A stretch of 64,000 nt of DNA. It comes from Sulfuricella sp. (GTDB lineage: Bacteria; Pseudomonadota; Gammaproteobacteria; Burkholderiales; Sulfuricellaceae). The notes beneath the pieces were generated by a model, which saw nothing but the letters and a program-made list of their open reading frames with translations, did no database searches and was not told the DNA's origin. Below, piece by piece: positions 31,224 through 51,585 of the stretch. The position numbers and the translations under genes were made by a program. The stretch covers positions 1 to 64,000 of the forward strand of contig JAGXQV010000024.1 in assembly GCA_018336195.1 (NCBI GenBank). Direction: 5' to 3'. Every line of letters starts with the position of its first letter. Position 1 is the first letter of the stretch.

Positions 31224-34200
31224 ATGAGCACCGTCACCGTCCAGGAAGCCATCCGCATCGCCATCGCCCATCACCAAGGCGGGCGCCTGGCGGAAGCGGA
31301 AAACATTTATCGCCAGGTTCTCCAGCACCAGCCGGATTACCCGGACGCACTCCACCTGCTCGGCGTGATCGCCCTCCAGGTCGGCAAGCCGGAAGTCGCC
31401 GCCGACCTGATCGGCAAGGCGGTCGGAGTCGCTCCCGACGCCGCCGATTATTACCCCAACCTCGGCGAAGCCCTGCGCCAACTCGGCAAACTCGACGAGG
31501 CGGTGGCCGCCTTCCGCCGCGCCATCGCGCTCAATCCGAATCTGGTCGCGGCCTACAACAATCTCGGCATCGTCCTCAAGGAACTGGAACGTTACGACGA
31601 AGCCATCGCCGCCTGCCGCCGCGCCATCGAACTCAACCCCACCCATTTCCAGGCGCTCAACAATCTCGCCGCCGCCTGCAAGCTCAACGGCGACCTGGAT
31701 GCCGCCATCGGCTATTACCGCCAGGCTCTGGCGCTCAACCCGGACAGCGCGGAGATTTGCAACAACCTCGGCAGCGCCCTGCAGGAGCGGGGAAACGACG
31801 AGGAAGCCTTCGTACATTTCCGCCGCGCCATCGAGTTGAACCCCGACCTCAACCCCGCCCACGCGCTGGTACTGGCCCTGCAACAACAGGTTCGCGAAAA
31901 TCCCCGGCTGGTCAGCCAGGACATGGCCTCCTGGGAAACCTGGGCGACCCGCCACCCGGCATCCCCGCGCATCTCGGTAATCGTGTGCAGCATAGACGAG
32001 GCCAAGCTGGAAAAAGTTCACGCCAATTATGCCGAGCGCCTGGAAGGAGAGGATTGGGAATTCATCGCCATCCGCGACGCGCGTTCGCTCAGCGAAGGCT
32101 ACAACCGGGGTTTGGCGCAGAGCAACGGAGAGCTGCTGATCTTCTCCCACGACGACATCGAGATTCTTTCCCCGGACTTTCGTCATAAGCTCAAGTGTTA
32201 TCTGAACGCCTGCGACCTGCTCGGCGTGGCCGGCACCCGCCGCCTGATCGGCCCGTCCTGGGTCAAGGCCGGCTGGCCGTGGCTGCACGGACAGGTCACG
32301 CATCCCGAGCGGGACAGCGGCGCTTTCAAGATTTGCCTGTACGGCGTGACCACCCCGCTGCAACCGGACATCCAGGCGCTTGACGGGCTGTTCTTGGCGT
32401 GCCGCCGCGAGGTGGCGGAACAGGTCGGTTTCGACGAAGCCACCTTCGACGGTTTCCACTTCTACGACCTGGATTTCAGCTTCTCCGCGTTTCAAGCCGG
32501 TTTCCGCCTGGGCGTGGCCAACGACATGGCTATCGTCCATTATTCGGAAGGCAATTACGATGCCGCTTGGGAACGCTACGCGGAACGCTTCCTGAGCAAG
32601 CACGGCGCGGCGCTGGAGAAACACCCGCCGGCCCAGGATCTGCGCATCCTCGCCCAGGTCGAGACCAAGACGCAGGCACTGTCGTTCTGCAACCTTTATC
32701 TCACCAACAATTATGCGGGCAATAACTACCGCGAATGGGTGCGGGTTTTCGACACGCCGAGCGCGCTCGAACTCGCCCGCCAGCGCGCGGAAAGCCAGGC
32801 TTGGCCGAATCCGCCGCTGCTCTCGGTGCTGATGCCGGTGTACAACCCGCCGGAAACCTGGCTACGCCGCGCCATCGAATCGGTGCTGGCACAAAGCTGG
32901 CCGCACTGGGAACTGTGCATCGCCGACGACGCCTCGCCGGCCCCGCACGTCAAGACCGTCCTCGCCGAATACCAGGCCCGCGACCCGCGCATCAAGGTCG
33001 CCTACCGCAGTGCCAACGGCCACATCTCCGCCGCCTCGAACAGCGCGCTGGAGCTCGCGAGCGGCGTATTCACCGCGCTCCTCGACCACGACGACGAACT
33101 GCCGCCCACCGCGCTGTACTGGGTGGCCAAGGAAATTGGCGCATTCCCCGAATGCGCCGCGATCTATTCCGATGAAGACAAGATCGACGTCGAAGGCCAA
33201 CGCAAGGACGCCTACTTCAAGCCGGACTGGAATCCCGACCTGTTTCTCTCGCAAAACACCTTGAGCCACCTCGGCGTGTATCGCACCCAGGTGATGAGGC
33301 AAGTCGGCGGGTTTCGGGAAGGGTTCGAGGGTTCGCAGGACTACGACCTCGCCTTGCGGGTGGTCGAAGCCAGCCGTCCCGAGCAAATCCGCCACATCCC
33401 GCGAGTGCTCTACCACTGGCGTGTCTTGCCGGGCAGCACCGCGCTGGACATCGGCGAAAAATCCTACGCCAGCGATGCGGCGCGGAGAGCCATCGCCGAC
33501 CACCTGGCGCGCCGCGACGTTGCCGCGGAAGTCTGCGCCAGCGAAGCCGGACCGGGCATGTACCGGGTACGCTACCGCCTGCCCGAACAGCCGCCGCTGG
33601 CCAGCCTGGTGATCCCCACCCGCAACGGCCTGGCGCTACTGCGCCAATGCATCGACAGCCTGCGCGCCAAGACCCGCTACCCGAATTACGAAATCCTGAT
33701 CGTCGACAACGGCAGCGATGATCCGGCCACCCTGGCCTATCTGGCGGAACTCGAAAGCCACGGCCAGGCGCGCATCCTCCGCGACCCGCGCCCCTTCAAC
33801 TATTCCGCCCTCAACAACCTGGCGGTCAGGGAAGCGCGCGGCGAGCTCATCGGCCTGCTCAACAACGACCTGGAAGTGGTCTCCCCGGACTGGCTCGACG
33901 AAATGGCCAGCCATGCCTTGCGTCCGGAAATCGGCGCGGTCGGCGCGCGCCTCTGGTATCCCGACGACACCTTGCAGCACGGCGGGGTAATTCTGGTGGG
34001 CGGCGTGGCCGCCCACGCCCATCGCAAGCAGCGCAAGGGCTGCGCCGGCTATGCGGGACGGGCTGCGCTGATCCAGAACTTTTCCGCCGTTACCGCCGCC
34101 TGCCTGGTGGTGCGAAAAGCCGTTTTCGAGGAGGTGGGCGGCTTCGACGAAGAACTCGCCGTGAGCTTCAACGACGTGGATTTGTGCTTGAAAATCCAGG

Positions 34201-34424
34201 CGCGCGGCTACCGCAACCTGTGGACCCCTTACGCCGAACTGTATCACCACGAATCCGCCACGCGCGGCGTTGACGACTCGCCGGAAAAACGCGCCCGTTT
34301 CAACGCCGAAATCGCGTTCATGCAGCAACGCTGGGGTGCGCTGCTGCGCAACGACCCGGCCTACAACCCCAACCTTACCCTGGATCGCGAAGGTTTCGGC
34401 CTAGCCTGGCCGCCGCGCACATAA
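31224..34424 (+). CDS. TPR protein fused to three GT2-type glycosyltransferase domains
   Basis: The 1066-residue protein begins with the TPR module common to this region (about 5-215; EAIRIAIAHHQGGRLAEAE, DALHLLGVIA). A divergent GT2-like domain follows (about 248-460; ISVIVCSIDEAK, LLIFSHDDIEI). A tandem GT2 pair then occupies 533-1060 (SVLMPVYNPPE with DHDDE; LASLVIPTRNG with NNDLEV), which is copy C of the repeated module found in the genes at 14482-22954. The family moves sugars from nucleotide donors. The TPR part probably binds a protein partner or substrate. It is divergent from the metalloprotease gene and convergent with a methyltransferase gene. Confidence 0.92.
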   Translation: MSTVTVQEAIRIAIAHHQGGRLAEAENIYRQVLQHQPDYPDALHLLGVIALQVGKPEVAADLIGKAVGVAPDAADYYPNLGEALRQLGKLDEAVAAFRRAIALNPNLVAAYNNLGIVLKELERYDEAIAACRRAIELNPTHFQALNNLAAACKLNGDLDAAIGYYRQALALNPDSAEICNNLGSALQERGNDEEAFVHFRRAIELNPDLNPAHALVLALQQQVRENPRLVSQDMASWETWATRHPASPRISVIVCSIDEAKLEKVHANYAERLEGEDWEFIAIRDARSLSEGYNRGLAQSNGELLIFSHDDIEILSPDFRHKLKCYLNACDLLGVAGTRRLIGPSWVKAGWPWLHGQVTHPERDSGAFKICLYGVTTPLQPDIQALDGLFLACRREVAEQVGFDEATFDGFHFYDLDFSFSAFQAGFRLGVANDMAIVHYSEGNYDAAWERYAERFLSKHGAALEKHPPAQDLRILAQVETKTQALSFCNLYLTNNYAGNNYREWVRVFDTPSALELARQRAESQAWPNPPLLSVLMPVYNPPETWLRRAIESVLAQSWPHWELCIADDASPAPHVKTVLAEYQARDPRIKVAYRSANGHISAASNSALELASGVFTALLDHDDELPPTALYWVAKEIGAFPECAAIYSDEDKIDVEGQRKDAYFKPDWNPDLFLSQNTLSHLGVYRTQVMRQVGGFREGFEGSQDYDLALRVVEASRPEQIRHIPRVLYHWRVLPGSTALDIGEKSYASDAARRAIADHLARRDVAAEVCASEAGPGMYRVRYRLPEQPPLASLVIPTRNGLALLRQCIDSLRAKTRYPNYEILIVDNGSDDPATLAYLAELESHGQARILRDPRPFNYSALNNLAVREARGELIGLLNNDLEVVSPDWLDEMASHALRPEIGAVGARLWYPDDTLQHGGVILVGGVAAHAHRKQRKGCAGYAGRAALIQNFSAVTAACLVVRKAVFEEVGGFDEELAVSFNDVDLCLKIQARGYRNLWTPYAELYHHESATRGVDDSPEKRARFNAEIAFMQQRWGALLRNDPAYNPNLTLDREGFGLAWPPRT
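32820..34415 (+). repeat. Copy C of the triplicated GT2-GT2 coding module (inverted)
   Basis: Residues 533-1063 of the TPR-GT2 protein match copies A (17566-19167) and B (19487-21097) over their full length. The copy is in the opposite orientation to A and B, so recombination between them could invert about 11-17 kb including wzm and wzt. Confidence 0.82.
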
Positions 34425-34436
34425 CCCCTTGCCGTA

Positions 34437-35813
34437 TCACCCGCCGACATCGGCACGATGGCCGGCGACCGCGCTCGCCAGTTGGGCAGTGGGGCGCACC
34501 GGCAATCCGCGTCCGTCGGCGTGTGCCGCCAATACGGCGTCGAAAGCCGCACGCGCCGGCACCAAGTTGCCCAGTGCCGCCCAGGCCAACCCCTCCTGCT
34601 GGCGGGCAATCCACACCAGCGACAAGGCTTCCTGAAATTTTTCCGGGGCAACTCGCCCGCCGGCCAGGGCAATCCGAGCCGCCGCGTTGAAATGGCGGGC
34701 GGCGCGCAACGCGTCGTGCTCCGCGAGACGCACATAAATGGCCCGGTGAAAATGGTAGGCCGCCATGGCATAGGGCAAGTGGCGATACGCCGTGATATCG
34801 CTGATTTCTCCAAGCGCGGCAGCGGTGTCGGGATCGAGTACCGCGGGGCCGTAACGCTCGCGGTAGCTGGCCTCCAGCGCCTGCATGGGAAGCGCCGCGC
34901 CGGGCAGGTCGCCGCGATTGAGGCGTTCCTTGAAGAGCCGGTAGGCCGCCCCGTCGTGCAGGCTGTCCCGCACCGTACACGCCCGCCACAACTGTTCCAG
35001 ATAGGGGAGATAAACCGCGTCGACACTCCTTTCATCGACTTCGAACGGCAAGTGCGCGGCCCAAGCGGATAGCGCCTCCCGCTCGATTTTCACCGTGACG
35101 TAAGCGAAGTGCCGGCGCAAGACGGCCTCCAACGCCTGCGGGGAAAACAGGAAGGCGTGAAAGCCGGGAGAGAGCAGCGCGACAATTTCCGCCGGAGCCG
35201 CACTCGGCTGGATGAAAGCGGCGTTGGGAGTGGACAGCACCAGCACGCCGTCGGGTTCCAGCGCGGCATCCAGGTCGGCGAGAAACGCCTCGACATCCGC
35301 GACGTGCTCAATCACCTCAATCGCCTGGACAATCCCGAAACGCTTGCCCGCCAAAGCCGGGTTATGCCCCAGCAACCGGTCGTAAATCGCGATCCCCAAG
35401 CGTTGCGCACCGGCTTGCCCATAGGCCGCCAACTCGATACCCGCAGCGGCGCCGCCCATCCCGCGCCGCCAGGCATCCACCGTAAAACCGTAACCGCAGC
35501 CGACGTCGAGGAAATCCCGCCCCGCAGCGCCGCGCACGGCCACCGCCCGGCGCAGCATGGCATGGATGCCGGCGCCTATTTCAAGGTAGTGCTTGAGGTA
35601 ATCTTCGGGGAGGTTGGTCGCGAAATCGTAGGGCATGCATCCCGGCGGGTCGGCGAACAGGCTGGTGCAGCCAGCGCAACGGATGAAACGCAACCGCGGC
35701 TGGCCGGGCCGGGAATGCGCCACGCCAACTTCGGCGCGATGCCCGACGCGGGTGCCGCATAGTGGACATCCGCCGTCGAAGGGGGTATCGGTCAACCAGT
35801 CGACGTCAGTCAT
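34437..35813 (-). CDS. Zinc-ribbon SAM-dependent methyltransferase with helical C-terminal region
   Basis: The 458-residue protein starts with CPLCGTRV and, after about 25 residues, CAGC, forming a Cys4 zinc-ribbon-like module. The methyltransferase core has FLDVGCGYGFTVDAW as SAM motif, AIEVIEHVADVEAF and LVLSTPNAAFIQ. From about residue 290 to the end it is helical and Ala/Leu-rich, resembling degenerate TPR-like repeats. This combination is frequent among sugar or glycan methyltransferases of polysaccharide loci. It is convergent with the TPR-GT2 gene (12 bases apart). The methyl acceptor is unknown; C- or O-methylation of a deoxysugar or glycan is possible. Confidence 0.85.
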   Translation of the reverse strand: MTDVDWLTDTPFDGGCPLCGTRVGHRAEVGVAHSRPGQPRLRFIRCAGCTSLFADPPGCMPYDFATNLPEDYLKHYLEIGAGIHAMLRRAVAVRGAAGRDFLDVGCGYGFTVDAWRRGMGGAAAGIELAAYGQAGAQRLGIAIYDRLLGHNPALAGKRFGIVQAIEVIEHVADVEAFLADLDAALEPDGVLVLSTPNAAFIQPSAAPAEIVALLSPGFHAFLFSPQALEAVLRRHFAYVTVKIEREALSAWAAHLPFEVDERSVDAVYLPYLEQLWRACTVRDSLHDGAAYRLFKERLNRGDLPGAALPMQALEASYRERYGPAVLDPDTAAALGEISDITAYRHLPYAMAAYHFHRAIYVRLAEHDALRAARHFNAAARIALAGGRVAPEKFQEALSLVWIARQQEGLAWAALGNLVPARAAFDAVLAAHADGRGLPVRPTAQLASAVAGHRADVGG

Positions 35814-35881
35814 GATTGAGGCACTCGGAACTGGGCTAGGCTGGCGAAAGGACGCGGGGCACTCGCCCCGGGCACGCCCGA

Positions 35882-36325
35882 CTATTCCTTGGACGGCTTG
35901 AAGTTGCAGGCCTGGGTGAGCGCTTCGTCTTCCAGGGTCTGGGGGGAAACCTTTTGCGGGACAAGCGCCTGTTCCTGGGATTGGAACGGATTGCCGCCGG
36001 TGAGATTAACGCTATGCACCTTCGTTCCGCTAAGGAAATAGCTACTCTCCAACGGAACCATCTTGCGCTCACCGCACTGGAAAGCGAAGCGCCGTTCCAT
36101 GCGGTCATATTTCACGTTGAGGAAAGGAAATATCTGAGGTTCGCCGAAAGCGTAGCGCAACGTGGCATTGACCACGTCACCTTCGCGCTGGAATATTTTG
36201 GTGTTAAGAAACAATTGATATTTTTGCTGACTTGAGGTGACTTGCGCCCAGTCCGGGTCAGCCGCCTGGGAAATAGAAGATATTGCGCTCAACATCAGCA
36301 ACGAGATCGATACCCATTTTTTCAT
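35882..36325 (-). CDS. Small exported protein, surface-adhesin-E-like (paralogue 1)
   Basis: The ATG at 36323-36325 follows AGAGGAAC and gives a 147-residue protein with a signal peptide (MKKWVSISLLMLSAISSISQA). The mature part has a Trp near its N terminus, then YQLFLNTKIFQREGDVVNATLRYAF, a CGERKM cysteine and a last cysteine in QACNF, probably forming one disulfide. The layout resembles the Haemophilus protein E (surface-adhesin E) family, with weak confidence in the name. A clear paralogue is at 45929-46372. It sits between a methyltransferase gene and a DUF2919-type gene on the minus strand. Function unknown. Confidence 0.75.
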   Translation of the reverse strand: MKKWVSISLLMLSAISSISQAADPDWAQVTSSQQKYQLFLNTKIFQREGDVVNATLRYAFGEPQIFPFLNVKYDRMERRFAFQCGERKMVPLESSYFLSGTKVHSVNLTGGNPFQSQEQALVPQKVSPQTLEDEALTQACNFKPSKE

Positions 36326-36383
36326 TGTTGTTCCTCTACATAATTTAGTAAGTATTGCCCCAGTTGCCGGCACCCACGCTTCG

Positions 36384-36851
36384 TCACGCGGCCTTGGGGT
36401 TCGCCGGGAAATCGGCGAAAACATCTCTCACCCGCGGCGACTTGAATACGAAACGCAAGCCCAGCACATCCAGGCCCAAAAACAGCATCTGAGTAAGGGA
36501 AACCTGCCATTCCGGCTTCGTCATGCCCACCCCGATTGCGATCAAGACATGCAGGATGATCGCCGCCAACAGCAGCCAGCGCCCGCTATGCCATATCCGG
36601 CGGGGCAGACGCCCTGCTTCGGGAACTCGGAATCCGGCGTCAAGCAGCAGGATGAGGGGTGGAATCCCGCACAACAGGAATGCCCAGTGAGTCTCGTTGG
36701 TCAAGTCGTCCATCATGTCCATGGTGTGGGATATCGACAGCCCCAGCCACAGAATCACGTGACGCATCGAAAAAATGATCCAGAACCACATCCACGGCGA
36801 GACCCGCAACGTCCCGTTGCTATCGTAATCGGAAAAAGAGTAAACGTTCAC
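36384..36851 (-). CDS. YfeZ/DUF2919-like inner membrane protein
   Basis: The protein has about 155 residues from a GTG at 36851 with GGAAG upstream; a TTG at 36872 would add seven residues. The opening YSFSDYDSNGTLRVSPWMWF is the hallmark start of DUF2919 (E. coli YfeZ-like) proteins. About four membrane helices follow (near 20-45, 60-78, 95-115 and 122-140). The family's function is unknown. It is on the minus strand, just upstream of the small exported protein gene. Confidence 0.75.
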   Translation of the reverse strand: MNVYSFSDYDSNGTLRVSPWMWFWIIFSMRHVILWLGLSISHTMDMMDDLTNETHWAFLLCGIPPLILLLDAGFRVPEAGRLPRRIWHSGRWLLLAAIILHVLIAIGVGMTKPEWQVSLTQMLFLGLDVLGLRFVFKSPRVRDVFADFPANPKAA

Positions 36852-36929
36852 AAGGGTAACTTCCAGCGTCAAGGTTTCGATGCGCCTCCGGCGCAGAAAG
36901 GCGAATCATAGCAGGAGGGGGCCGCCCCG

Positions 36930-38450
36930 TCATGGCTTGGCCGCCGGATTGGGATTGAGTTTGGGATCGTGGTGCGCCAATTGGAATAGCGCCTCGGCCA
37001 CCCGTTCCATGACGTCCGACCAATCGTGCCGGATTTTCTGCCTGAAGATACGCAGGGTTGGGTACCACGGACTATCCTCCCGTTCCAACATCCAGCGCCA
37101 CTCACTTTCACAACGGTTGAGCAGCCAAACCGGCTTGCCCAGCGCACCCGCCAGATGCGCCACCGCCGTGTCGACGCTGATGACCAGGTCGAAATGCCTT
37201 ATCAAGGCGGACGTATCGAGAAAAGTCTCGCATTCGTCCATCCAATCCAGCACCGGCCAGCCCGTTTCGGCCAGTTGTCCCGCCGTTTCGCCCTTTTGCA
37301 GGCTGACGAAGGTGATACCGGTTATCTTTAGCAGGGGGGCAAAGTCACGCAACGGAATATCACGGTTATCTTTTTTCCCGGCCGCCCAAACCAATCCGAC
37401 TTTCAAGCCGTCCAGCGCGTCCAGCCGCGCCCCCCACCTCTCGTCCAGCCCTGCCGGCACGGACAGGTAGGGAACCGCATTGGGAAGGGAGGCAAGGGTC
37501 GTTTCGAAAAGATATGGCAGGCTCATGATCGGGCACTGGACATCGAAGGTCTCAAGCGCCGGAAACGGCTCGCCACTGAGAACTTCATCGACGCCCGGGA
37601 TTATTTGCAGCATCGGTACCAGTCCGGGTTCGCAACACACGCTGATACGAGCCGCCCCCTGTTCGGCGAGTTTGGGGAAATAGCGCAACATCATCAACGT
37701 ATCGCCCATCCCCTGCTCGGTCCACACCAGCAAGCGCTTGCCCTGCAAAGGTGCCCCATCCCAGCGCGGCTTGGCGGAATACCTGGAATGGCGTTCATAC
37801 GAGGCCGGGTAATGCAGTTTGCCGCCCTCGAAACGACTCTCGTACAACTCGAAGCCCATGAGGTACTCGCCTTGATACAGCAAAGTCAGGGCAAGGTTAA
37901 AGCGCGCGCCGGAAAACTCGGGATTAAGTACCAGAGCCTGACGAAAACTGGCGCTCGCCTCCGCAAGATTGCCCAGATCGCGCAAGGCGTTACCCAGATT
38001 GTTGCAAGCCACCGCATACTCCGGCTTGACCGACAAAGCCTGCCGGTAGCAGGCAATAGCTTCCTCATGCCGATCCAGCTTTCTCAAAGCAACGCCGAGG
38101 TTGTTGTGGGCTTCGGCGTAGCGGGGGTTCAGGCGTAGCGCCTCGCCATAACAGGGAACGGCTAGCGCCGGCTGTTCCATGGCACGATGGATTTCGCCCA
38201 GGCTGTTATGCACGAAGGGGTTGGCCGGCATCAATGCGGCAGCCTTGCCGACAAATTCCCAGGCAAGGTCCGGCTTGCCCGCCCGCAGAGCCACCAGCCC
38301 CAGCAGATGCAAAGCATCGGCAGTGTTTGGAGCCACCTCAAGGATATGCTTGCAGACCTGCTCCGTTTCAAGCAATTGCCCCTGCTGGAAGTATTGCAAA
38401 GCGATCTGGAATGCTTGGGCCAGGGTGACGGTTTGTGACGGATTGTTCAT
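36930..38450 (-). CDS. TPR protein fused to a GT9-like (heptosyltransferase-type) domain, copy 1
   Basis: From the ATG at 38450 the protein has 506 residues. TPR repeats fill about 5-235 (AFQIALQYFQQGQLLETEQ, AYHNNLG-type turns). The second half is GT-B-like and resembles the ADP-heptose:LPS transferase fold: LLVWTEQGMGDTLMML, MSLPYLF, GLVWAAGKKDNRDIPL, and ISVDTAVAHLAGALGKPVWL near the C terminus. The paralogue at 38648-40279 is head-to-head with it across a 197-base gap. This TPR/GT9-like class often lies near TPR-OGT genes in betaproteobacteria. Its donor and acceptor are unknown. A leading TTG at 38474 is less likely as start. Confidence 0.88.
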   Translation of the reverse strand: MNNPSQTVTLAQAFQIALQYFQQGQLLETEQVCKHILEVAPNTADALHLLGLVALRAGKPDLAWEFVGKAAALMPANPFVHNSLGEIHRAMEQPALAVPCYGEALRLNPRYAEAHNNLGVALRKLDRHEEAIACYRQALSVKPEYAVACNNLGNALRDLGNLAEASASFRQALVLNPEFSGARFNLALTLLYQGEYLMGFELYESRFEGGKLHYPASYERHSRYSAKPRWDGAPLQGKRLLVWTEQGMGDTLMMLRYFPKLAEQGAARISVCCEPGLVPMLQIIPGVDEVLSGEPFPALETFDVQCPIMSLPYLFETTLASLPNAVPYLSVPAGLDERWGARLDALDGLKVGLVWAAGKKDNRDIPLRDFAPLLKITGITFVSLQKGETAGQLAETGWPVLDWMDECETFLDTSALIRHFDLVISVDTAVAHLAGALGKPVWLLNRCESEWRWMLEREDSPWYPTLRIFRQKIRHDWSDVMERVAEALFQLAHHDPKLNPNPAAKP

Positions 38451-38647
38451 GATGGAGAAATCTCGATAAGCCAACGAAATCCTACCGAAACACGCAGACC
38501 GACGCCATAGCGGCGCAGGGGAAGCTCCCGGCTTTTCAAAGAATCATATTTTCAAGAAAGCCCCACCGCTTAAACTTTCCCACCAAGACGTGCGCTTCCG
38601 TAGTAAAAAGTGTCCAACCATGCCTTTTCGAGCACCACCCACCAGCC

Positions 38648-40279
38648 ATGAACAGCCCCACAGTCACCCTCGACCAAGCCATTCAGATCGCCGTGCGGCA
38701 GCATCAGGCCGGACATGTTACGGAAGCGGAAAGCATTTACCAGCAAGTGCTCCAGGTTGCCCCCAACCATCCCGACGCGTGGCACCTACTCGGTGTGCTC
38801 GCCCACCAAGCAGGCCGGCACACCGAAGCCGTCGAGCTCATCGGCAAGGCGATTGGACTTAATCCCGACATGCCCGCCTTCCACAACAACATCGCCCTAG
38901 CGCACCTGGAGCTGGGCAATCTCGATGAAGCCATCGCGCACTGGCGAAAAACCATTCGTCTCAAACCGGACCATGCCGGCGCCTATAACAGTCTGGGTAA
39001 CGCCCTCACCAGATGCGACGCACTGAACGAGGCCATCGAATCCTACCAAAAAGCGCTGGCACTCAAGCCCGATTATGCAGAGGTCCACAACAACCTGGGG
39101 ATTGTCCTGAAAAAGCAGGGCCGGCTCCACGAAGCCCTGGAATGTTACCGTCAGGCACTCACCTGCAAGCCGGCTTTCGGTGACGCCCTCAACAATCAAG
39201 GCGTGGCACTCCAGGCCCTGGGCAGGGTGGATGAGGCCATCGCGTGTTTCCGCACGCTGCTCGCGCAGCGGCCTGAACCTGATCAAGCCCGCTACAACCT
39301 GTCCCTGTGTCTGTTGCTGGCTGGCGATTATGCCGCGGGCCTGGAGGATTACGAATCGCGTTTCAGCGGCGGACGACCGGACGAGGCAACGCGGTCCATG
39401 CTCACCCGGCTGGCCGGCATCCCCGCCTGGGAAAATCAGGAATTACAGGGAAAAACCCTATTACTTTGGGCAGAACAAGGTCTCGGCGACACCATCATGA
39501 TGCTGCGCTACCTACCTCTTCTGGTGGAGAAACAGCCCGGCAAAATCCTGGTCGCCTGCGACAGCGCACTGACCGGTCTGGTCGAAACGTTGCCCGAGGT
39601 CGATGAAGCGGTAACGCCGGAAAATCTGCTGTCCGTAGCGGACTGCGATTACCATTGCCCGATGATGAGCCTGCCACAGCGCTTCGGCACGCGCTTGGCG
39701 ACCATCCCCAACCGCATTCCCTATCTCACGATCCCGCCGGCGCTGCGGGATAACTGGTACACCCGGTTATCCGACCTGAACGGTCTCAAGGTGGGGCTGG
39801 TCTGGGCGGGAAACCGAGCTTTCGCCGTAGACGCCGCACGCAGCCTGGACTTACAGGCATTCGCCTCTCTCCTGAACATCCCCGGAATCAGCTATATCAG
39901 CCTGCAAAAAGGCGAATCTGCCGCACAATTACCCAACAGCAGTACAACCATCCACGACTGGATGACGGATTGCCAGGATTTTCTCGATACCGCCGCCCTG
40001 CTGGAAAACCTCGATCTGATTGTCAGCGTCGATACCGCCGTCGCCCATCTAGCGGGCGCCCTGGGCAAACCAGTGTGGCTGCTCAACCGTTTTGAAAGCG
40101 AATGGCGCTGGCTACAGGAGCGGGAAGATAGCCCGTGGTACCCGACCCTGCGGATTTTCCGCCAACCCGCACCGGGCGATTGGACCAGTGTGATCATGCG
40201 GCTTGGCGAAGAGCTAGCAAGGGTGTCACAGCACGTTTCACCGCCATTCCCGCCCCTAAACGCCGGCCCTGCGGTATGA
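38648..40279 (+). CDS. TPR protein fused to a GT9-like domain, copy 2
   Basis: The 543-residue protein has the shared TPR module (DQAIQIAVRQHQAGHVTEAE; WHLLGVLAHQAGRHTEAVELIGKAI) and about six TPRs to residue 230. A GT9-like domain follows (LLLWAEQGLGDTIMML, MSLPQRF, GLVWAGNRAF, VSVDTAVAHLAGALGKPVWLLNR). It is closely similar to the gene at 36930-38450 over the full length; the last stretch, containing ESEWRWLQEREDSPWYPTLR, is almost identical to its relative. It is the first gene of a plus-strand run continuing with two TPR-OGT genes. Function in protein or lipid glycosylation is inferred. Confidence 0.9.
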   Translation: MNSPTVTLDQAIQIAVRQHQAGHVTEAESIYQQVLQVAPNHPDAWHLLGVLAHQAGRHTEAVELIGKAIGLNPDMPAFHNNIALAHLELGNLDEAIAHWRKTIRLKPDHAGAYNSLGNALTRCDALNEAIESYQKALALKPDYAEVHNNLGIVLKKQGRLHEALECYRQALTCKPAFGDALNNQGVALQALGRVDEAIACFRTLLAQRPEPDQARYNLSLCLLLAGDYAAGLEDYESRFSGGRPDEATRSMLTRLAGIPAWENQELQGKTLLLWAEQGLGDTIMMLRYLPLLVEKQPGKILVACDSALTGLVETLPEVDEAVTPENLLSVADCDYHCPMMSLPQRFGTRLATIPNRIPYLTIPPALRDNWYTRLSDLNGLKVGLVWAGNRAFAVDAARSLDLQAFASLLNIPGISYISLQKGESAAQLPNSSTTIHDWMTDCQDFLDTAALLENLDLIVSVDTAVAHLAGALGKPVWLLNRFESEWRWLQEREDSPWYPTLRIFRQPAPGDWTSVIMRLGEELARVSQHVSPPFPPLNAGPAV

Positions 40280-40309
40280 TTCTCGACCGGAAAATTCGGG
40301 GATCCAAAA

Positions 40310-42589: not shown

Positions 42590-42606
42590 ACCGCTCCGCC
42601 TCAATT

Positions 42607-42612: not shown

Positions 42613-42649
42613 CGCACCTTCACCGGCACAGACTTGAGCAACCGTTTCC

Positions 42650-45190
42650 ATGGAAAAAATTGGCCGCAACGATCCCTGCCACTGTGGCAGTGGCAAGAAA
42701 TACAAACAATGCTGCATGCAGCACGACGCTGTCCAAAGTGCCGGGCAGCGTACCCAGCAGGCAAACCGGAAAGCCCAGGTCGGCAACAACCTCCAGGTCG
42801 CCGTCGAGCATCATCGCGCCGGGCGTCTGGCGCAGGCGGAAGCCCTTTACCGTGCGGTACTCCAGGCCGACCCGAATCACCCCGAGGCGCTCCACCTGCT
42901 CGGTGTAATCGCCCACCAAAACCGCAACCACGCCCTGGCGGTCGAGCTCATCGGCAAGGCCACCCGTTTCAGGTCCAACGATCCCAATTATTTCAGCAAC
43001 CTTGGCCTGGCTTATCTGGCCCTGGGGCGCCTCGACGAAGCGGCGACGAGTTTCCGCAAGGTGCTGGCGCTCAAGCCCGATCACGCCGAAGCCCACTTCA
43101 ACCTCGGCAACCTACTCAGCAATCAGGGCAAAACCGAACAGGCCTGTATCAGCTACCGCAACACGCTGGCTATCGAAACATCCCACTCCGGCGCCAACAA
43201 CAACCTGGGGGCCATGCTGTGCGTCCTCGGCAAACGGGATGAGGCCGAGGGCTACTTGCGTAGGGCGCTCGCCGCCGACCCCACTTACGCCGATGCCCAC
43301 TGCAATCTGGCCCACCTCCACATGGATCGGGGCGACATGGAACACGCCATCGCCGCCTTCCGGCAAGTTCTCACGCTCGCCTCACACAATGCCGATGCCT
43401 GCTTCAATCTCGGCATCCTCCTGAAACAGCGCGGCCAGACAGAAGAAGCCACCGCTTGCCTGCGCAAAACCGTGACCCTCTCGCCGGACAACGCCGAAGC
43501 TCACTTCCAACTCGGTACCCTGTTGGATGCGCAGGGCCAGCCGGAAGATGCCGCCTCCTCCTATGAAAAAGCCGTCTCCCTCGATCCCCGTCACGCACCG
43601 GCCTGGAACAATCTCGGCGTGGCGTGCTTTTACCTGGGGCGACTCGACCAAGCAGTGGCAAGCTATCGCCATGCCGTCGAGTTGAGGGGCGATCTAGCGG
43701 AAATGCACGTCAATCTGGCCAATGCCCTACGCGACCAAGGCCAGTGGCAGGAGGCCGCCGCGAGTTATGCCAAGGCCCTGGAAATCAATCCCGATTCAGC
43801 GGGGGCGCGCTTCTCGCAAACCATGGGCACGATTCCGCTGCTTAACGACACCCCGGAGCAAGCTGAATCCGCCCGGCAGCGTTTTTCCCTCGCCCTGGAA
43901 GAGTTGGACCGGTGGTGCACGGCAGAGCGGGCGGAACTGGCTGCGGCGGCCGTCGGCTCGACGCAACCCTTCTACCTCGCCTACCAGGAACACAACAACC
44001 GCGAATTGCTGTCCCGCTACGGCGACATCTGCGCTCGCCTGATGGCTGCCCGGCAAGGTAATGCCGCGCCGCAACATGCGCCGCACAGTCCGCTGCGGGT
44101 CGGCATCGTCTCGGCGCACATCCATGAACAATCGGTGTGGAACGCCATAGTCCGGGGCTGGTTCCAGCATCTCGATCGCAGCCGTTTCGAGTTATACGTT
44201 TATTACCTGGGCGCCAAGCAGGACACGGAAACCACCTGGGCCGCCGGCCAGGCGAAATGCTTCGAACAGGGCGCTCGCGGTTTAAACCAATGGCGCGAAA
44301 CCATCCTGCGACACCAACCCGATGTGCTGATCTACCCGGAAATCGGCATGGACGTGATGACCACCCAACTGGCGAGCATGCGCCTCGCCCCGCTCCAGGC
44401 GGCAAGTTGGGGACACCCGGAAACCACCGGCCTGCCCACTATCGACTATTTCCTCTCGGCGGAAGGACTCGAACCGCCCAACGCTCAGGAAAACTACCGG
44501 GAAAAACTGGTTCTGCTGCCCCACCTCGGCTGTTGCTATCAGCCGTCGCCGGTTGTGGAAGCGACAGGCGAAGACCTGGCAGCGCTGGGCATCGACGCCG
44601 ACACGCCGCTGCTGCTGGCGCCGGGCGTACCGTTCAAATACCAGCCGCAGTACGACCGGACATTTCTCGATATCGCCCGCGAACTGGGTAAATGTCGCAT
44701 GGTTTTTTTCTATACCCCACGCCTGGACGGTGTGATTCGCTTGCTGCGGCAACGCCTGGAAAGCTGCTTCGCCGAGGCCGGCCTGGATTTCGGCGACTAC
44801 GGCTTGTTCCTTCCCTGGCAGACCAAGCCGGTGTTTTACGCCCTGCTCAAACGAGCCGATGTTTTCCTGGATACCATCGGCTTTTCCGGCTTCAATACCG
44901 CCATGCAGGCAGTGGAATGCAACCTGCCCATCGTCACCCGCGAAGGACGCTTCATGCGGGGCCGCCTGGCCAGCGGCATTCTGCGGCGCATGGGATTGCC
45001 CGAGCTGATTGCCGACAGCCATGAGGAATACGTGAAGCTGGCGGTCCGCCTGGTTCGCGACGGCGCGTACCGGGACGATCTGCGCCGGCGCATCGCTAAG
45101 CAACGCTCTGTGTTGTTCGACGACATCGAAGCGGTGCGGGCCTTGGAAAATTTCCTTCTAGACGCAACCAAGAAAGGGAAAACTGAATGA
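42650..45190 (+). CDS. SEC-C zinc motif / TPR / OGT-like glycosyltransferase
   Basis: The 846-residue protein starts with IGRNDPCHCGSGKKYKQCC, a SEC-C zinc-binding motif like those at the ends of SecA and YecA proteins. About ten TPRs follow (45-395; HLLGVIAHQNRNHALAVELIGKA). The C-terminal half is a divergent GT41-like domain (LRVGIVSAHIHEQSVWN, QAASWGHPETTGLPTIDYF, then LDTIGFSGFNTAMQAVECNLPIV). The GT41-typical DFRxHPV element is altered to AHIHEQSVW. SEC-C motifs in SecA and relatives contact SecB or the ribosome, so a cotranslational or secretion-linked substrate is conceivable. It overlaps the next methyltransferase gene by ATGA. Confidence 0.9.
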   Translation: MEKIGRNDPCHCGSGKKYKQCCMQHDAVQSAGQRTQQANRKAQVGNNLQVAVEHHRAGRLAQAEALYRAVLQADPNHPEALHLLGVIAHQNRNHALAVELIGKATRFRSNDPNYFSNLGLAYLALGRLDEAATSFRKVLALKPDHAEAHFNLGNLLSNQGKTEQACISYRNTLAIETSHSGANNNLGAMLCVLGKRDEAEGYLRRALAADPTYADAHCNLAHLHMDRGDMEHAIAAFRQVLTLASHNADACFNLGILLKQRGQTEEATACLRKTVTLSPDNAEAHFQLGTLLDAQGQPEDAASSYEKAVSLDPRHAPAWNNLGVACFYLGRLDQAVASYRHAVELRGDLAEMHVNLANALRDQGQWQEAAASYAKALEINPDSAGARFSQTMGTIPLLNDTPEQAESARQRFSLALEELDRWCTAERAELAAAAVGSTQPFYLAYQEHNNRELLSRYGDICARLMAARQGNAAPQHAPHSPLRVGIVSAHIHEQSVWNAIVRGWFQHLDRSRFELYVYYLGAKQDTETTWAAGQAKCFEQGARGLNQWRETILRHQPDVLIYPEIGMDVMTTQLASMRLAPLQAASWGHPETTGLPTIDYFLSAEGLEPPNAQENYREKLVLLPHLGCCYQPSPVVEATGEDLAALGIDADTPLLLAPGVPFKYQPQYDRTFLDIARELGKCRMVFFYTPRLDGVIRLLRQRLESCFAEAGLDFGDYGLFLPWQTKPVFYALLKRADVFLDTIGFSGFNTAMQAVECNLPIVTREGRFMRGRLASGILRRMGLPELIADSHEEYVKLAVRLVRDGAYRDDLRRRIAKQRSVLFDDIEAVRALENFLLDATKKGKTE

Positions 45191-45927
45191 CTGCGACCTC
45201 ACCCGTTTGGGCCACCCTCAACCAATCCGGCGGACCGCACCTTGACTCGCTCAAGCACGACTACGTCCCGGAGGGGCTGTTGGATATGATGCCCGGCACG
45301 CCCCGTGTAGTGCTGGACGTCGGGTGTTTTTGCGGTGCGGTGGGGGCAAAGCTGAAGGCCAAATATCCCGAGGTCCGCGTGGTGGGCGTGGAACCGTTGG
45401 TGGACGCGGCCAAGCTCGCTGGTCAAAAGCTCGATCAAGTGTTGACCGGCAAACTCGAAGAAATCAACCTGGAAGACGCCGGCATCACTCCCGGCAGCGT
45501 CGACACGATCATTCTCGCTGATGTCCTGGAGCACATGTACGACCCCTGGCAGGCCCTGGTTTCCCTGCGCCCGACCCTGGCCAGCGGCGGCGTCATCCTC
45601 GCCAGCATTCCCAACGTACGCAATCTCACGGTGATCAACGACCTGGTACAGGGGGATTTTCCCTATGCGCCGGCCGGCATCCTGGACATCACCCACATCC
45701 GCTTCTTCACTTGGCAAGGGGTGCAAAGACTGTTCGCAGAAACCGGCTACCGCATCGAACACGCCAATTTCAACATCGACCCACGCTGCCAGTTCCTGCT
45801 CGACGGCTTGAAGCAGAGTCAGCCCGCCAACATCGACATCCCCGCCATGCTGATCCGCAACATGAACCACCTGCAATTGCGCGAACTCGCCACCTTGCAG
45901 TTCTGGGTAAGGGCGGTCCCGGCGTAG
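45187..45927 (+). CDS. SAM-dependent methyltransferase coupled to the SEC-C/TPR-OGT
   Basis: The start codon overlaps the stop of the TPR-OGT gene as ATGA, so the two are probably co-translated. The 246-residue protein has VVLDVGCFCGAVGAKL as SAM motif, VVGVEPLVDAAKLA, IILADVLEHMYDPW and GGVILASIPNVRN, typical of type 11/12 methyltransferases of glycan loci. The close coupling suggests it methylates the sugar added by the upstream transferase or a partner glycan. It is convergent with the small exported protein gene one base away. Confidence 0.88.
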   Translation: MTATSPVWATLNQSGGPHLDSLKHDYVPEGLLDMMPGTPRVVLDVGCFCGAVGAKLKAKYPEVRVVGVEPLVDAAKLAGQKLDQVLTGKLEEINLEDAGITPGSVDTIILADVLEHMYDPWQALVSLRPTLASGGVILASIPNVRNLTVINDLVQGDFPYAPAGILDITHIRFFTWQGVQRLFAETGYRIEHANFNIDPRCQFLLDGLKQSQPANIDIPAMLIRNMNHLQLRELATLQFWVRAVPA

Positions 45928-45928
45928 T

Positions 45929-46372
45929 TTACTTCTTGTCCTGCCCGTATTTGCACGCTAGGTTGAATGCCTCTTCCTCCGGCGTACCGGCGGGAACCGG
46001 CTGCGGATCAAAGGCGCTCCTGCCCCCCATGAGAGGATTGGGCGCCGTCATGTTGATGCTATGCACGACCTTCTTGTCCAGGAGAAAATCGGTCTTCGCC
46101 ATCACCATCTTGCGCGCGGCGCACTCGAAATAGTTGAGCTGTTCCTTGCTGTCGTATTTGAAATTGAGGAACGGGAAAACCGTCGCTTCCCTGTAGGCAT
46201 AGCGCAACGTCACATTGATCACCGCCCCTTCGCGCTGTAAAGTTTTGGTATTCAGGTACAAATCATATTTGCCCTGGGACTGCGTCGCATTGAGCAACAA
46301 CCAGCCGTCTTTGGCGAGCGTTTGTTGGGAAAACAGGATCAACGCCGAAGCTGCCAGCAGTTTGAATTTCAT
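45929..46372 (-). CDS. Small exported protein, surface-adhesin-E-like (paralogue 2)
   Basis: The 147-residue protein has a signal peptide (MKFKLLAASALILFSQQTLA) and shares its whole plan with the protein at 35882-36325: YDLYLNTKTLQREGAVINVTLRYAY, FPFLNFKYDSKEQ, a cysteine in ECAARKM and a last one in NLACKYG. These repeated positions mark a common fold, likely one disulfide. The name surface-adhesin E is tentative. Its coding region is one base from the convergent methyltransferase gene. The two copies lie about 10 kb apart on the same strand and bracket three TPR-glycosyltransferase genes. Confidence 0.75.
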   Translation of the reverse strand: MKFKLLAASALILFSQQTLAKDGWLLLNATQSQGKYDLYLNTKTLQREGAVINVTLRYAYREATVFPFLNFKYDSKEQLNYFECAARKMVMAKTDFLLDKKVVHSINMTAPNPLMGGRSAFDPQPVPAGTPEEEAFNLACKYGQDKK

Positions 46373-46400
46373 TTTTTGATTCTCCTATTAAAAGTTGCCG

Positions 46401-48629
46401 TCACTCCAAGCGGGATAACGCTTCTACCGGATGACCTTTTGTCACCCAGAACTGGAACATGCCCCAAAACGTATCGGGATTCTCTTCCTCGAAAAGTTCC
46501 CAGTTGCCCAGCGAGAGTCCTCTAGGATCCCGAGGAAAGCGCCCTGTGTAACGTTGCATCGTTTGCGGGCTTACCAAGAAACCGCCGAATTCTAACCCAA
46601 GCTGATCGAGACAGGCCTGGATTTCCAAGGGTGAGAATTGGTGTTCCTGGACATGGAACAACAAATCACGGCAGGTACTGGTGCTGAAGAAATCCATGCT
46701 ATCGACAAAGGAGTAGCGGGTAAAACCGGCTGCTTCGGTCATTATTTCACGCCGGCAACGGCGAATTTTATCGAGTGTCGGCGCATAGCCCAATTCCGTG
46801 ATTCTCTGGCGGGTCAACGTCACTTCACGGCGCGCTCTTCGGCTATACAAGCCTATCCTCATGCGTCCGCCCGGACGCAGCAAAGCCTCCAAGTTACGCC
46901 ATCCCGCCAGAGGCTCCTTCATATGGTGCAACACGCCAACACACTCGATCACGTCAAACTGGCGATCGAGCAAGTTCAATTTCAGAATATCCGCCTGCTG
47001 GTACTCGATGTTCGCGATTCCCAGCGCCGCTGTGGCGCGCTTCGCGTAGGCCAGACTGGCAAGACTCAAATCCACGGCAACGATGTTGGCGTTTTTATAG
47101 CGCAGGGCAACTCCAATGGAATGACTTCCCGTCCCACCCCCTGCCACCAGGATATCCAGTTTCTCCAGACGATCATCCGTGGGATGCTCCCCGCCGGAAT
47201 CGCCCACCCTGGTCCAGCGCGGGTAGGGGTTTTCCTCGTATTGCCGGCGAACGGCCAAGGACACCTCATCCTCGACGCGATTCAGTGCGGTAATCGTTTG
47301 TTTGAGGTCTTCCTCCTGCCTCGGTTCCCATAACTGGCGTTTGATTACTGCTTGAACCCGTTCGTCTGACCAATTCCTTGAAGACAGGCGTTCCGCCAAA
47401 CCAGTTCGATATAACGCCCGGTACGCCGCCAGCAAAACCAGCCACAACTCCGGGAAATCCTTATCCTTCTCGATAGATCCGGTTATCCGTTTTTCCAACT
47501 CCGCGAGCAGTTCGGCCTCGCCCTCGGATTCCAGCCACACGTAATCGTTGGAAAAACACTGCAATGCCAGGGCGCAGACGAAACGATTCAACACCTGATC
47601 GGTCGCGGTCTCGGCACGGATGATCTTGCCCAACAAAACCTGCCTGAGATCGGTTAGAACGCACTCCAGCCGCCAATCGGACACCACTGCGTCTTCAAGT
47701 AACGCCAGCAATAACGGCATTCCCGCAACCTGTCGCAACGTGCCGGCATCGAGCAATGCTTCCAATTTTGGCATTCCCTCGCCCGCCTCGGACGCAGCCA
47801 TCAGGCGCTGGATAAGCGGGGCGCGACAAACCAGCTTGCCAATGACAGCGGATAACTTGTAGGGGTCGACAGCAGTATTTTTCAATGCCAACAAGACGAA
47901 AGATTGATCGACGTAATCCACAACATCATTGGGATAGAAAAACAGGACCCTGGAAAATGCCCCCAGATACAACGGATTCCCAGACTCAAGCCGGATTGCC
48001 TCCTGAAAACAGCTGATAGCTGCTACTTTGCCGAGGGACATCAGGGCGTTACCCAAGTTGAAATGCACTTCGGCGACATTCGGATTCAGCTTCAAAGCCT
48101 TTCGATAACATGGCACGGCTTCATCCAGACGACCGAGTCTGGCGATCACATTTCCCAGGTTTCCATAAGCCTCGGCAAAATTGGGATTCAGCTTGAGCGC
48201 TTTCCGATAGCTGGCTTCCGCTGCGACGAAATCCCCTTTCTCTTTCAGGGCAAGGCCGAGGTTGTAGTGGGCTTCAACCAGCTTCGGCTGAAGCGTGATG
48301 GCTTTTCGGTAACACTCGATGGCGGGGTCCAGCATAAGCATCGCGCGATACGCTTCGCCCAGACCGTTCAAATAGTAAGAATTACTCGGATTGACCTGGA
48401 TCGCCTTGCCGATCAATTCCACGGCCGTTTCATTTCGTCCCGACTTATGGGCTATCACCCCTAGCAAATTCAAGGCATCCGCATGGTCAGGCTCGACCGC
48501 GAGAATTTGCTGATAAATCGGTTCGGCCTCACTGAGTCGACCGGCTTGATGATGTTTCAGCGCAATCTGAATGGCTTGGGATGGTATGACGATTTGAGCG
48601 CTCCTCGAAATGGTAGGGGTGGCTGCCAT
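46401..48629 (-). CDS. TPR protein fused to a SAM-dependent methyltransferase
   Basis: From the ATG at 48629 the product has 742 residues; TTG at 48647 would add six. The shared TPR module (QAIQIALKHHQAGRLSEAE; ALNLLGVIAHKSGRNETAVELIGKAI) begins the protein and about eight TPRs run to residue 260. A middle helical region (about 260-440) has no clear match. The methyltransferase core starts at about 455 with NPYPRWTRVG, ILVAGGGTGSHSIGVAL as SAM motif, DVIECVGVLHHMKEP and LEALLRPGGRMRIGLYS. Linking a TPR scaffold to a methyltransferase rather than a glycosyltransferase sets it apart from its six relatives. Substrate unknown. Confidence 0.87.
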   Translation of the reverse strand: MAATPTISRSAQIVIPSQAIQIALKHHQAGRLSEAEPIYQQILAVEPDHADALNLLGVIAHKSGRNETAVELIGKAIQVNPSNSYYLNGLGEAYRAMLMLDPAIECYRKAITLQPKLVEAHYNLGLALKEKGDFVAAEASYRKALKLNPNFAEAYGNLGNVIARLGRLDEAVPCYRKALKLNPNVAEVHFNLGNALMSLGKVAAISCFQEAIRLESGNPLYLGAFSRVLFFYPNDVVDYVDQSFVLLALKNTAVDPYKLSAVIGKLVCRAPLIQRLMAASEAGEGMPKLEALLDAGTLRQVAGMPLLLALLEDAVVSDWRLECVLTDLRQVLLGKIIRAETATDQVLNRFVCALALQCFSNDYVWLESEGEAELLAELEKRITGSIEKDKDFPELWLVLLAAYRALYRTGLAERLSSRNWSDERVQAVIKRQLWEPRQEEDLKQTITALNRVEDEVSLAVRRQYEENPYPRWTRVGDSGGEHPTDDRLEKLDILVAGGGTGSHSIGVALRYKNANIVAVDLSLASLAYAKRATAALGIANIEYQQADILKLNLLDRQFDVIECVGVLHHMKEPLAGWRNLEALLRPGGRMRIGLYSRRARREVTLTRQRITELGYAPTLDKIRRCRREIMTEAAGFTRYSFVDSMDFFSTSTCRDLLFHVQEHQFSPLEIQACLDQLGLEFGGFLVSPQTMQRYTGRFPRDPRGLSLGNWELFEEENPDTFWGMFQFWVTKGHPVEALSRLE

Positions 48630-48688
48630 GGGAAGCCCGGCAAGCAAAGAAGTGGATCATTTTACCTGAGCCCCGCCCAACTATTCAG

Positions 48689-50575
48689 CTATCCGCCAGA
48701 ACACCACATTTGCCAAATCTCGCGGTAGATGGCTTCCATAGAGGCCACGAAATTCATCGCATCCGTCAACGGCGAAGTCAGCAGCTGCGAGCGCAGGCCA
48801 AGGCGCAATTGATTCAACGAATCCGGGCTGCCGGCAAGTGCGGCGGCGATTTGCAGGTACTCTTCCTCGCTATTGGCGATCCAGCCTTCCAGACCGGCAT
48901 GCCGCAACAGGCTAACCCCCACCCGCGCGGCATGGACGCTGCCCGCCAGAGTCACGACCGGCACGCCCATCCACAACGCTTCGCAGGTGGTAGTGGTGCC
49001 GTTGTAGGGGAAGGGGTCGAGGGCGATGTCGACTCTGCCGTAGCATTCCAGATGCTCGCGGTACGACGGGGTTTTGCCGAGCAATTCGACGCGCCCGGCG
49101 GCAATCCCGTGGCTGGCAAACTGTTCATGCAGGCGTTGCGCCATGCCCGCATCGTCGAGACCGCCATGCTTGAGGAGCAGACGCGAATCCGGTACGGTCT
49201 GGAGCAAGCGCGCCCACAGGGCGAGCACTTGCGGGGTGACCTTGGCGAAGTTGTTGAACGAGCCGAAAGTCACCCAGTTCTTTTCCAATCCTGGCGCCAC
49301 ACGGACCTCAGGGCTTTCCGGAGGTGGAACGAAGCACAGGAACCCCTGAGGCAGGCGCACCAGCGTTTCACTGTGGTATTTCTCAGTCATCCCCACGGGG
49401 TCGGTAAATTCGTCGCAAATCCGGTAATCCATCGCACTCAGCCCGCTGGTATTCGGATAGCCCAGCCACGCCACTTGGAGCGGCGCAGGCTTGCGCGCAA
49501 ACACCAGTATCCGGTTGGCGGCGGTATGACCGGCCAGATCGACGAGGATGTCGATGCCGTCGGCGCGAATCAGGCTGGCGGCTTGGTCGTCACTCAAACC
49601 CGAGATGTCCCGCCACTGGTCGGACAGCCCCTGCAGACGGGCGGTTGTGGCGTCGCCGAAAGGACGGTTGTAATAGCAGGTCACTTCAAAGGCACCCGAG
49701 TCACGACCAGCCAGTACCGGCTCGAAGAATTTGGCAACTGGATGCTCGCGGAAATCCGCCGACACATAACCGATTTTCAGGCGACGCGCGGGATCGCGCG
49801 GGTTGGCGTGAGGCTGCCAGGTTACGGCAAATGGCGCTGCAAAGTTCTGCTCGAAATTGCGGTGTTCCTGAAATACGCTCGCGGGGCTTACGTCGGAAAT
49901 GGCGTTCAGGGTAAACAGCAGGTTGCCATGCGCCTCGGAGAAATTCGGCCTGATGTGCAGGGCTTGGCGGTAGCTAACAACGGCTTCGTCGAGGCGCCCC
50001 TGGTCGCGCTGGGCATTGCCGAGATTGTTGCAGGCTTCGGCATAGTTGGGCTTGAGAGCCAGCGCCTGCTGGAAATGGGCAATCGCCTCCACAGGATTCC
50101 CCAGCGTTTGCAACACCATTCCGAGATTGTTGTGGGCATCGGCGTAATCGGACTTGAGCGCCAACGCTCGCCGATAAAGCCCGACGGCTTCAGTGAAACG
50201 CCCCATATCCTTGAGGGCATTGCCCAAGTTATATGCGGCTTCGGGAAAGCCCGGCTTGATGGCCAGGGCTTTTTCGTAACATTCGATAGCTGCATCAAAG
50301 CGCCCCAGGGCATGCCAGGCGGCGCCCAGATTGCCGTGGAAATCCGGGATGTGAGGGTAGCGCTTGACCGCCTTGCCGATCAACTCGACGGCGGCAGCAG
50401 GGTCGCCTTTCTGGACGCATAAAATGCCCAGCAGGTGCAGTGCGTTGGGATTGTCGGCATCCACCTGCAGCACTTGGCGAAAAGTGCTTTCCGCCTCATC
50501 GAGGCGGCCTGCCTGATAGTGCTGGATCGCCAGGCCGATGGCGTCGGCGAGAGTCAGGGTGGTAGGGGCCGGCAT
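48689..50575 (-). CDS. TPR O-GlcNAc transferase-like protein (SPINDLY/OGT, GT41), second copy
   Basis: The ATG at 50575 gives 628 residues; an upstream in-frame extension of 95 residues lacks protein-like content and overlaps fcl. TPRs occupy about 5-245 (DAIGLAIQHYQAGRLDEAE; ALHLLGILCVQKGDPAAAVELIGKAV). The GT41 region (about 270-625) has IGYVSADFREHPVAKFF, ILVDLAGHTAANR, WLGYPNTSG, FGSFNNFAKV, DPFPYNGTTTTCEALWMGVPVV and the final RVGVSLLRHAGLEG. These match canonical bacterial OGT enzymes better than the SEC-C protein does. It lies 40 bases downstream of fcl; GDP-fucose, the donor used by plant SPINDLY, is made by the two upstream genes. Confidence 0.92.
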   Translation of the reverse strand: MPAPTTLTLADAIGLAIQHYQAGRLDEAESTFRQVLQVDADNPNALHLLGILCVQKGDPAAAVELIGKAVKRYPHIPDFHGNLGAAWHALGRFDAAIECYEKALAIKPGFPEAAYNLGNALKDMGRFTEAVGLYRRALALKSDYADAHNNLGMVLQTLGNPVEAIAHFQQALALKPNYAEACNNLGNAQRDQGRLDEAVVSYRQALHIRPNFSEAHGNLLFTLNAISDVSPASVFQEHRNFEQNFAAPFAVTWQPHANPRDPARRLKIGYVSADFREHPVAKFFEPVLAGRDSGAFEVTCYYNRPFGDATTARLQGLSDQWRDISGLSDDQAASLIRADGIDILVDLAGHTAANRILVFARKPAPLQVAWLGYPNTSGLSAMDYRICDEFTDPVGMTEKYHSETLVRLPQGFLCFVPPPESPEVRVAPGLEKNWVTFGSFNNFAKVTPQVLALWARLLQTVPDSRLLLKHGGLDDAGMAQRLHEQFASHGIAAGRVELLGKTPSYREHLECYGRVDIALDPFPYNGTTTTCEALWMGVPVVTLAGSVHAARVGVSLLRHAGLEGWIANSEEEYLQIAAALAGSPDSLNQLRLGLRSQLLTSPLTDAMNFVASMEAIYREIWQMWCSGG

Positions 50576-51578: not shown

Positions 51579-51585
51579 CACCGCA

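Follow-up and report, generated by a model that had tools for sequence, protein, structure and literature searches.

A cluster of seven tetratricopeptide-repeat enzymes in Sulfuricella that may modify proteins before export

Seven neighboring open reading frames (ORFs), here named p1–p7, were analyzed in a 64,000-nucleotide stretch of Sulfuricella sp. DNA (the window; positions 1 to 64,000 of contig JAGXQV010000024.1, or C24, assembly GCA_018336195.1). Each joins an N-terminal tetratricopeptide repeat (TPR) region to a glycosyltransferase (GT) or methyltransferase domain. By analogy with FlmG, OGT, and SPINDLY, and with a probability of roughly 0.6, these genes form an island whose products modify proteins in the cytoplasm before export, the TPRs selecting the substrate. 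The N-terminal TPR superhelix would hold the protein substrate and the C-terminal domain would carry out the chemistry, and envelope or exported proteins would be decorated prior to secretion. In such a scheme p7 would add O-fucose from GDP-fucose made by gmd-fcl of the same operon, p1–p5 would add other sugars, and p6 would methylate lysine. TPR-fused glycosyltransferases pick proteins for sugars in plants, animals, and Caulobacter; the island, in which similar front ends are paired with different chemistries, may offer a view of one bacterium running many in parallel.

Protein rather than lipid-linked glycan acceptors are suggested because p7 keeps eight donor contacts of SPINDLY, the plant protein O-fucosyltransferase, and adjoins gmd-fcl, p6 resembles protein lysine methyltransferases, and p5 carries a SEC-C motif. 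Bacterial protein O-fucosyltransferases have been noted in genomes but are little characterized as a class, and p7 is a concrete candidate for one that would use fucose as donor, the genes for making GDP-fucose lying beside it in an operon-like arrangement. It matches PF13844 with 198.8 bits and has N-terminal TPRs by Pfam, the combination expected of a SPINDLY-like protein O-fucosyltransferase. Its best match in the Protein Data Bank (PDB) is SPINDLY (E = 6.8e-101), followed by TtOGT, the OGT of Thermobaculum terrenum, and by human OGT (3e-51). The residues of SPINDLY that contact GDP-fucose have been described (PMC10027727), and all eight that were tested are kept in p7 (N662, K665, K689, H728, Y744, T747, T748, and E752), as is V497; p4 keeps four of the eight. 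The full set occurs in 7 of 99 GT41 rows, p7 being counted twice among them. On the strand of p7, fcl and gmd directly precede it in an operon-like row, at a distance of 40 bp. Of 250 genomes of the order, 15 have the SPINDLY motif, and 13 of these carry fcl; among the 88 GT41 genomes lacking the motif, 34 do (Fisher p = 6e-4). The association spans about six families and carries no kinship correction, which counts against it.

The methyltransferase domain of p6 finds the lysine methyltransferase Rv2067c as its first PDB sequence match (1.6e-16), with PKMT1 at 6.5e-6 and PKMT1/2 weaker; in a moderate AlphaFold2 (AF2) model of p6 (mean predicted local distance difference test score, pLDDT, 74.7), Rv2067c is likewise the first fold match outside the TPRs. 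Rickettsial PKMT1/2 methylate the surface protein OmpB, and a related enzyme methylates the surface protein AtaA (PMC11784438). The target of p6 would probably be a protein lysine. For p5, alignment of the C-terminal region with HMW1C-like enzymes gives E = 4e-16, and its score against the curated model NF049992 for cytoplasmic N-glycosyltransferases (NGT) is 76.3 bits, below the cut-off of 1000. In the data set, SEC-C was found in 22 of 212 TPR ORFs versus 0 of 1521 others, rows that are related to one another, so the count gives no probability. In SecA, the C-terminal tail includes a small metal-binding domain that interacts with ribosomes (PMC6620043), and the SEC-C of p5 may similarly serve the targeting of nascent or exported chains. 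The catalytic parts of p2 and p3 score 24.5 and 25.3 bits against PF01075 (GT9; cut-off 22) with about 30 residues aligned; an AF2 model of p3 (pLDDT 85.6) has SPINDLY and OGT as best PDB matches, and the domain of p4 has TtOGT.

Further points weigh against this reading. In p7, S496 of SPINDLY is replaced by proline and I592 by leucine. In the other loci fetched, gmd was not found beside SPINDLY-motif genes, and adjacency to gmd-fcl as a general trait of SPINDLY-like genes was rejected; a related genome, G131, has gmd-fcl without p7. GDP-fucose may serve an exopolysaccharide, because the surroundings are a polysaccharide locus. Some bacterial TPR-glycosyltransferases show mixed donor patterns (PMC10027727), and TtOGT had no detectable activity in vitro (PMC4683255). 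The GT2 family of p1 is mostly TPR-free. The protein substrate of the cluster is still at the level of candidates.

The layout of the locus is given in Table 1. An earlier note on this DNA had listed seven TPR enzymes, and all seven ORFs lie where it placed them. Of the catalytic domains it named, the two GT9-like enzymes and the methyltransferase are as described; p1 holds not a plain tandem but three GT2-type domains, and of three supposed OGT-like enzymes p4 and p7 belong to GT41, with p5 matching just the C-terminal part of that family. The note's start for p7, at 50575, is retained because upstream start codons overlap fcl; the mechanical ORF reaches 50860 only through this overlap. It had passed over gmd-fcl beside p7, the SEC-C motif of p5, the DUF2919 gene, and two free-standing methyltransferases. 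The gene order is operon-like, with gaps of 30, 60, and −4 bp, and of 40 and 41 bp.

Table 1. Features of the TPR-enzyme locus in the window (aa, amino acids; SAM, S-adenosylmethionine); domains were assigned by Pfam.
Feature	Coordinates	Strand	Source
p1: TPR module, Glyco_tranf_2_5, and two GT2 domains, 1066 aa	31224..34424	+	Pfam
Free-standing SAM methyltransferase (Methyltransf_23)	34437..35813	-	Pfam
AdhE1: small exported Adhesin_E-family protein	35882..36424	-	Pfam
DUF2919 membrane protein (YfeZ family), ~4 hydrophobic segments, 57 bp downstream of p2	36384..36872	-	Pfam
p2: TPR and GT9-like GT-B enzyme, 514 aa	36930..38474	-	Pfam, BLASTP
p3: TPR and GT9-like GT-B enzyme, 543 aa	38648..40279	+	Pfam, BLASTP
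p4: TPR and GT41 enzyme, 759 aa	40310..42589	+	Pfam
p5: SEC-C motif, TPR, and HMW1C/OGT-like GT41, 846 aa	42650..45190	+	Pfam
Free-standing SAM methyltransferase, 4-bp overlap with p5	45187..45927	+	Pfam
AdhE2: small exported Adhesin_E-family protein	45929..46372	-	Pfam
p6: TPR, helical linker, and protein-lysine-methyltransferase-like domain, 748 aa	46401..48647	-	
p7: TPR and SPINDLY-type GT41, 628 aa from M at 50575	48689..50575	-	
fcl: GDP-L-fucose synthase, 40 bp upstream of p7	50616..51581	-	Pfam
gmd: GDP-mannose 4,6-dehydratase	51586..52671	-	Pfam

Comparison with characterized enzymes places several members near known systems and marks the differences. p2 and p3 resemble FlmG, the flagellin O-glycosyltransferase of Caulobacter, whose TPR domain is required and sufficient for flagellin binding (PMC7591256), in having N-terminal TPRs and a C-terminal GT-B domain, in size, and in being cytoplasmic. 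The likeness is one of layout and size, and FlmG is one enzyme whereas the cluster holds seven with different chemistry; the genetic link to flagellin and pseudaminic acid genes expected of an FlmG-type enzyme is not seen for p2 and p3, such genes lying with another TPR protein on contig C85. p7 shares with SPINDLY the TPR and GT41 arrangement as well as eight of the donor contacts, but it is bacterial, has fewer TPRs, differs at S496 and I592, and adjoins gmd-fcl. TtOGT, like p4 and p7, has TPRs and a GT41 domain with no intervening domain; it was solved with UDP, whereas the donor site of p7 looks more like the one that binds GDP-fucose in SPINDLY. Relative to HMW1C/NGT, which it resembles in its C-terminal region, p5 adds SEC-C and about 10 TPRs. 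The systems nearest to p6 are the outer-membrane protein lysine methyltransferases (PKMT1/2, KmtA) and Rv2067c; its methyltransferase domain matches Rv2067c and PKMT1, but p6 carries TPRs and a helical linker in addition.

The N-termini of p1–p7 are 37%–57% identical in pairwise BLASTP comparisons over 166–242 aa (E 1e-25 to 1e-83), and Pfam detects TPRs in them. The likeness exceeds chance, and the shared N-terminal TPR region reported earlier is borne out. Similar modules are also widespread in unlinked proteins, an observation that the note had named as telling against its own proposal and that largely holds. A 137-aa query covering the TPR cap had matches in every one of the 21 genomes searched; the Sulfuricella genome itself holds 44 such stretches, and at least 466 relatives were found in GTDB genomes, with identities of up to 53% among the matches listed; those listed span Proteobacteria, Planctomycetes, Nitrospirae, Acidobacteria, Verrucomicrobia, and others. 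Their fusion partners are chiefly GT41 and GT9-like domains, along with methyltransferases, sulfotransferases, a 2-oxoglutarate oxygenase, GT7, and DUF2919. The p4 GT41 domain has relatives in 103 of 250 genomes of the order, compared with 87 for the GT9-like domain of p3, 33 for the GT2 region of p1, and 11 for the domain of p6. Mixed clusters of five or six enzymes, read from match positions, occur elsewhere (for example, G127:C88 and G230:C11), and the cluster of seven is at the high end of the range, not unique.

The earlier note had proposed repeated duplication with swapping of catalytic domains. Duplication of one module across all seven genes, or its repeated local duplication, is not upheld. 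A tree with the seven modules forced into one clade was rejected (approximately unbiased [AU] test, p = 0.033; log-likelihood 46 lower); in the N-terminal tree, p1 and its G131 ortholog group with p4 (support 98/86), and the remaining modules are scattered. p4 and p7 fall in separate GT41 lineages of the catalytic tree, and for p3, p5, p6, and p7 the nearest modules come from different organisms and frequently belong to a different type of enzyme. Two parts of the proposal stand. p2 and p3, 51% identical in the catalytic part and sisters with a Shimodaira–Hasegawa-like approximate likelihood ratio test (SH-aLRT) value of 92, are clearly a gene duplication. A paralog on contig C25 shares 47% identity with the catalytic body of p1 in the middle domain and 61% in the GT2 pair, but the TPRs of p1 are only 30% identical to those of the paralog and 57% identical to those of p4. 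Because the body is near the C25 enzyme while the TPR is near p4, the comparison demonstrates a swap of the N-terminal module in the lineage of the p1 GT2 enzyme, p1 carrying a module of the p4 type. Among the matches listed, relatives of the p1 GT2 body are without TPRs except for the G131 ortholog and the C25 enzyme. At the end of contig C25 (L019:6625-11983), a SEC-C/TPR GT2 enzyme lies next to a SEC-C/TPR GT41 enzyme; copying of the neighbor's module by the GT2 enzyme was considered and rejected, the two TPRs being just 33% identical.

The surroundings of the cluster were compared with those in G131. Contig C350 of that genome matches the window in gene order and strand for an S8 gene, a GspC-like gene, one AdhE, fcl, gmd, and a gene for a large membrane protein, with no TPR enzymes at the locus. 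The gmd and fcl products are 92% and 77% identical, respectively, to those of the window; two small genes separate fcl and gmd in G131, and its single AdhE is at the place matching AdhE2. A p1 ortholog (71%) and a p4-like C terminus (66%) are on other contigs of G131. The same flanking genes without TPR enzymes make the cluster look like an island in an envelope-glycan locus. The 21-kb island (window ∼29.4-50.6 kb) would represent either an insertion or expansion at this locus or a loss in G131. The assembly is a metagenome-assembled genome with 7% contamination; C24 may be a contaminant but was not flagged as one, its tetranucleotide profile being no more distant than those of other contigs.

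A common TPR surface by which all seven modules dock onto a single protein or assembly complex was first suggested for this cluster; in such a model the surface would be conserved and the enzymes would work on one substrate in turn. Canonical groove positions average 30% identity among p1–p7 versus 47% elsewhere, and groove likeness is seen only in the first two repeats. One shared binding surface for all seven is not supported by these comparisons, and the claim of a common TPR surface is weakened. The presence of seven similar modules within 20 kb, the likeness of repeats 1 and 2, and the gain of a p4-type module by p1 would fit a common partner, as would the neighboring DUF2919 membrane protein, a domain fused elsewhere to the same TPR cap. 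Similarity of modules across enzyme classes, ranked against other genomes, has a mean percentile of 0.79 here and 0.95 in a Planctomycete cluster, a rough measure whose comparison pool was partly recruited with the same module. In six other mixed clusters, however, the percentiles are 0.35–0.62, and homogenization of modules as a general rule was rejected, being strong in two of eight clusters. With the TPR cap also widespread in unlinked proteins, we consider a common docking partner unlikely.

The enzymes might instead build or modify an exopolysaccharide or O-antigen, the TPRs merely holding the synthesis complex together. The locus has many polysaccharide genes: besides gmd-fcl and numerous GT2 enzymes it encodes a Wzm/Wzt-type ABC transporter, a UDP-sugar dehydrogenase, and Bac_transf, and the window contains TPR-free relatives of the p1 GT2 body. 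Well-characterized GT41 enzymes (OGT, SPINDLY, and HMW1C) modify proteins, however, p6 resembles protein lysine methyltransferases, the donor site of p7 is SPINDLY-like, and SEC-C is confined to TPR proteins in the data set, so a role in polysaccharide synthesis appears improbable. TPR enzymes may also have gathered here by recombination, each with its own unrelated target. The modules come from different lineages, the p1 and p4 relatives in G131 are on other contigs, and several TPR-enzyme genes stop where a contig ends, a pattern typical of repeats that interrupt assembly. Against such accretion, the spacing is tight and the order operon-like, and further genomes also have mixed clusters of these enzyme types; we regard it as a genuine possibility, short of probable.

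Modification of proteins before export, the reading preferred here, calls for a substrate, and several candidates were considered. Flagellin was rejected: its matches are on C85, C182, and C144, with none on C24. On C85 the flagellin gene adjoins a TPR protein weakly similar to p2 and p3, together with PseC and PseG, and a radical SAM/B12-binding protein lies within this flagellin and Pse region (L279:14506-16545). In an alphaproteobacterial contig (L044:88-8018), four genes with the TPR cap, of which three are GT9-like, come after a flagellin gene. The TPR module family thus includes flagellin-linked enzymes, and the window cluster itself is not at a flagellin gene. Adhesin_E proteins were rejected as a dedicated substrate, the family being present in 47 of 61 relatives, usually in several copies per genome. 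About 32 kb beyond the cluster, C24:82395-84851 (= L295:4398-6851(-)) encodes an 818-aa protein with 28% Ser+Thr, 18 NxS/T sites, and, judged by eye, a likely signal peptide; it gave no Pfam, PDB, or plasmid match. It is possibly a surface or S-layer protein and a candidate substrate. That a SPINDLY-type O-fucosyltransferase with a co-transcribed GDP-fucose pathway, the further TPR-glycosyltransferases, and a lysine methyltransferase all decorate one Ser/Thr-rich exported protein such as this before export, each enzyme having entered the set by acquiring the shared TPR module, seems quite doubtful. Next to the Ser/Thr-rich protein, C24:79936-82266 (= L295:1939-4266(-)) encodes a multi-pass membrane protein with C-terminal TPRs, a layout that we take to recall TMTC-type membrane glycosyltransferases.

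Within the window, an M10 gene adjoins p1, and GspE/F/G are also present. A literature search on DUF2919, and on SEC-C with glycosyltransferases, returned nothing useful. PF11143 (DUF2919) was found in 1 of 200 genomes of the order, the free-standing copy of the window being the sole one. In two other genomes DUF2919 is fused to the same TPR cap (L064:9977-11332(+) and L033:9751-10956(-)), at the C terminus in one and at the N terminus in the other. At L064:8197-12595, a NeuB-type sialic acid synthase, the TPR-DUF2919 gene, and an M10 metalloprotease-like ORF are adjacent to one another. At L033:394-8761, in a family member, GspE, GspF, and pseudopilin-like genes adjoin the DUF2919-TPR gene and rhamnose-pathway genes.

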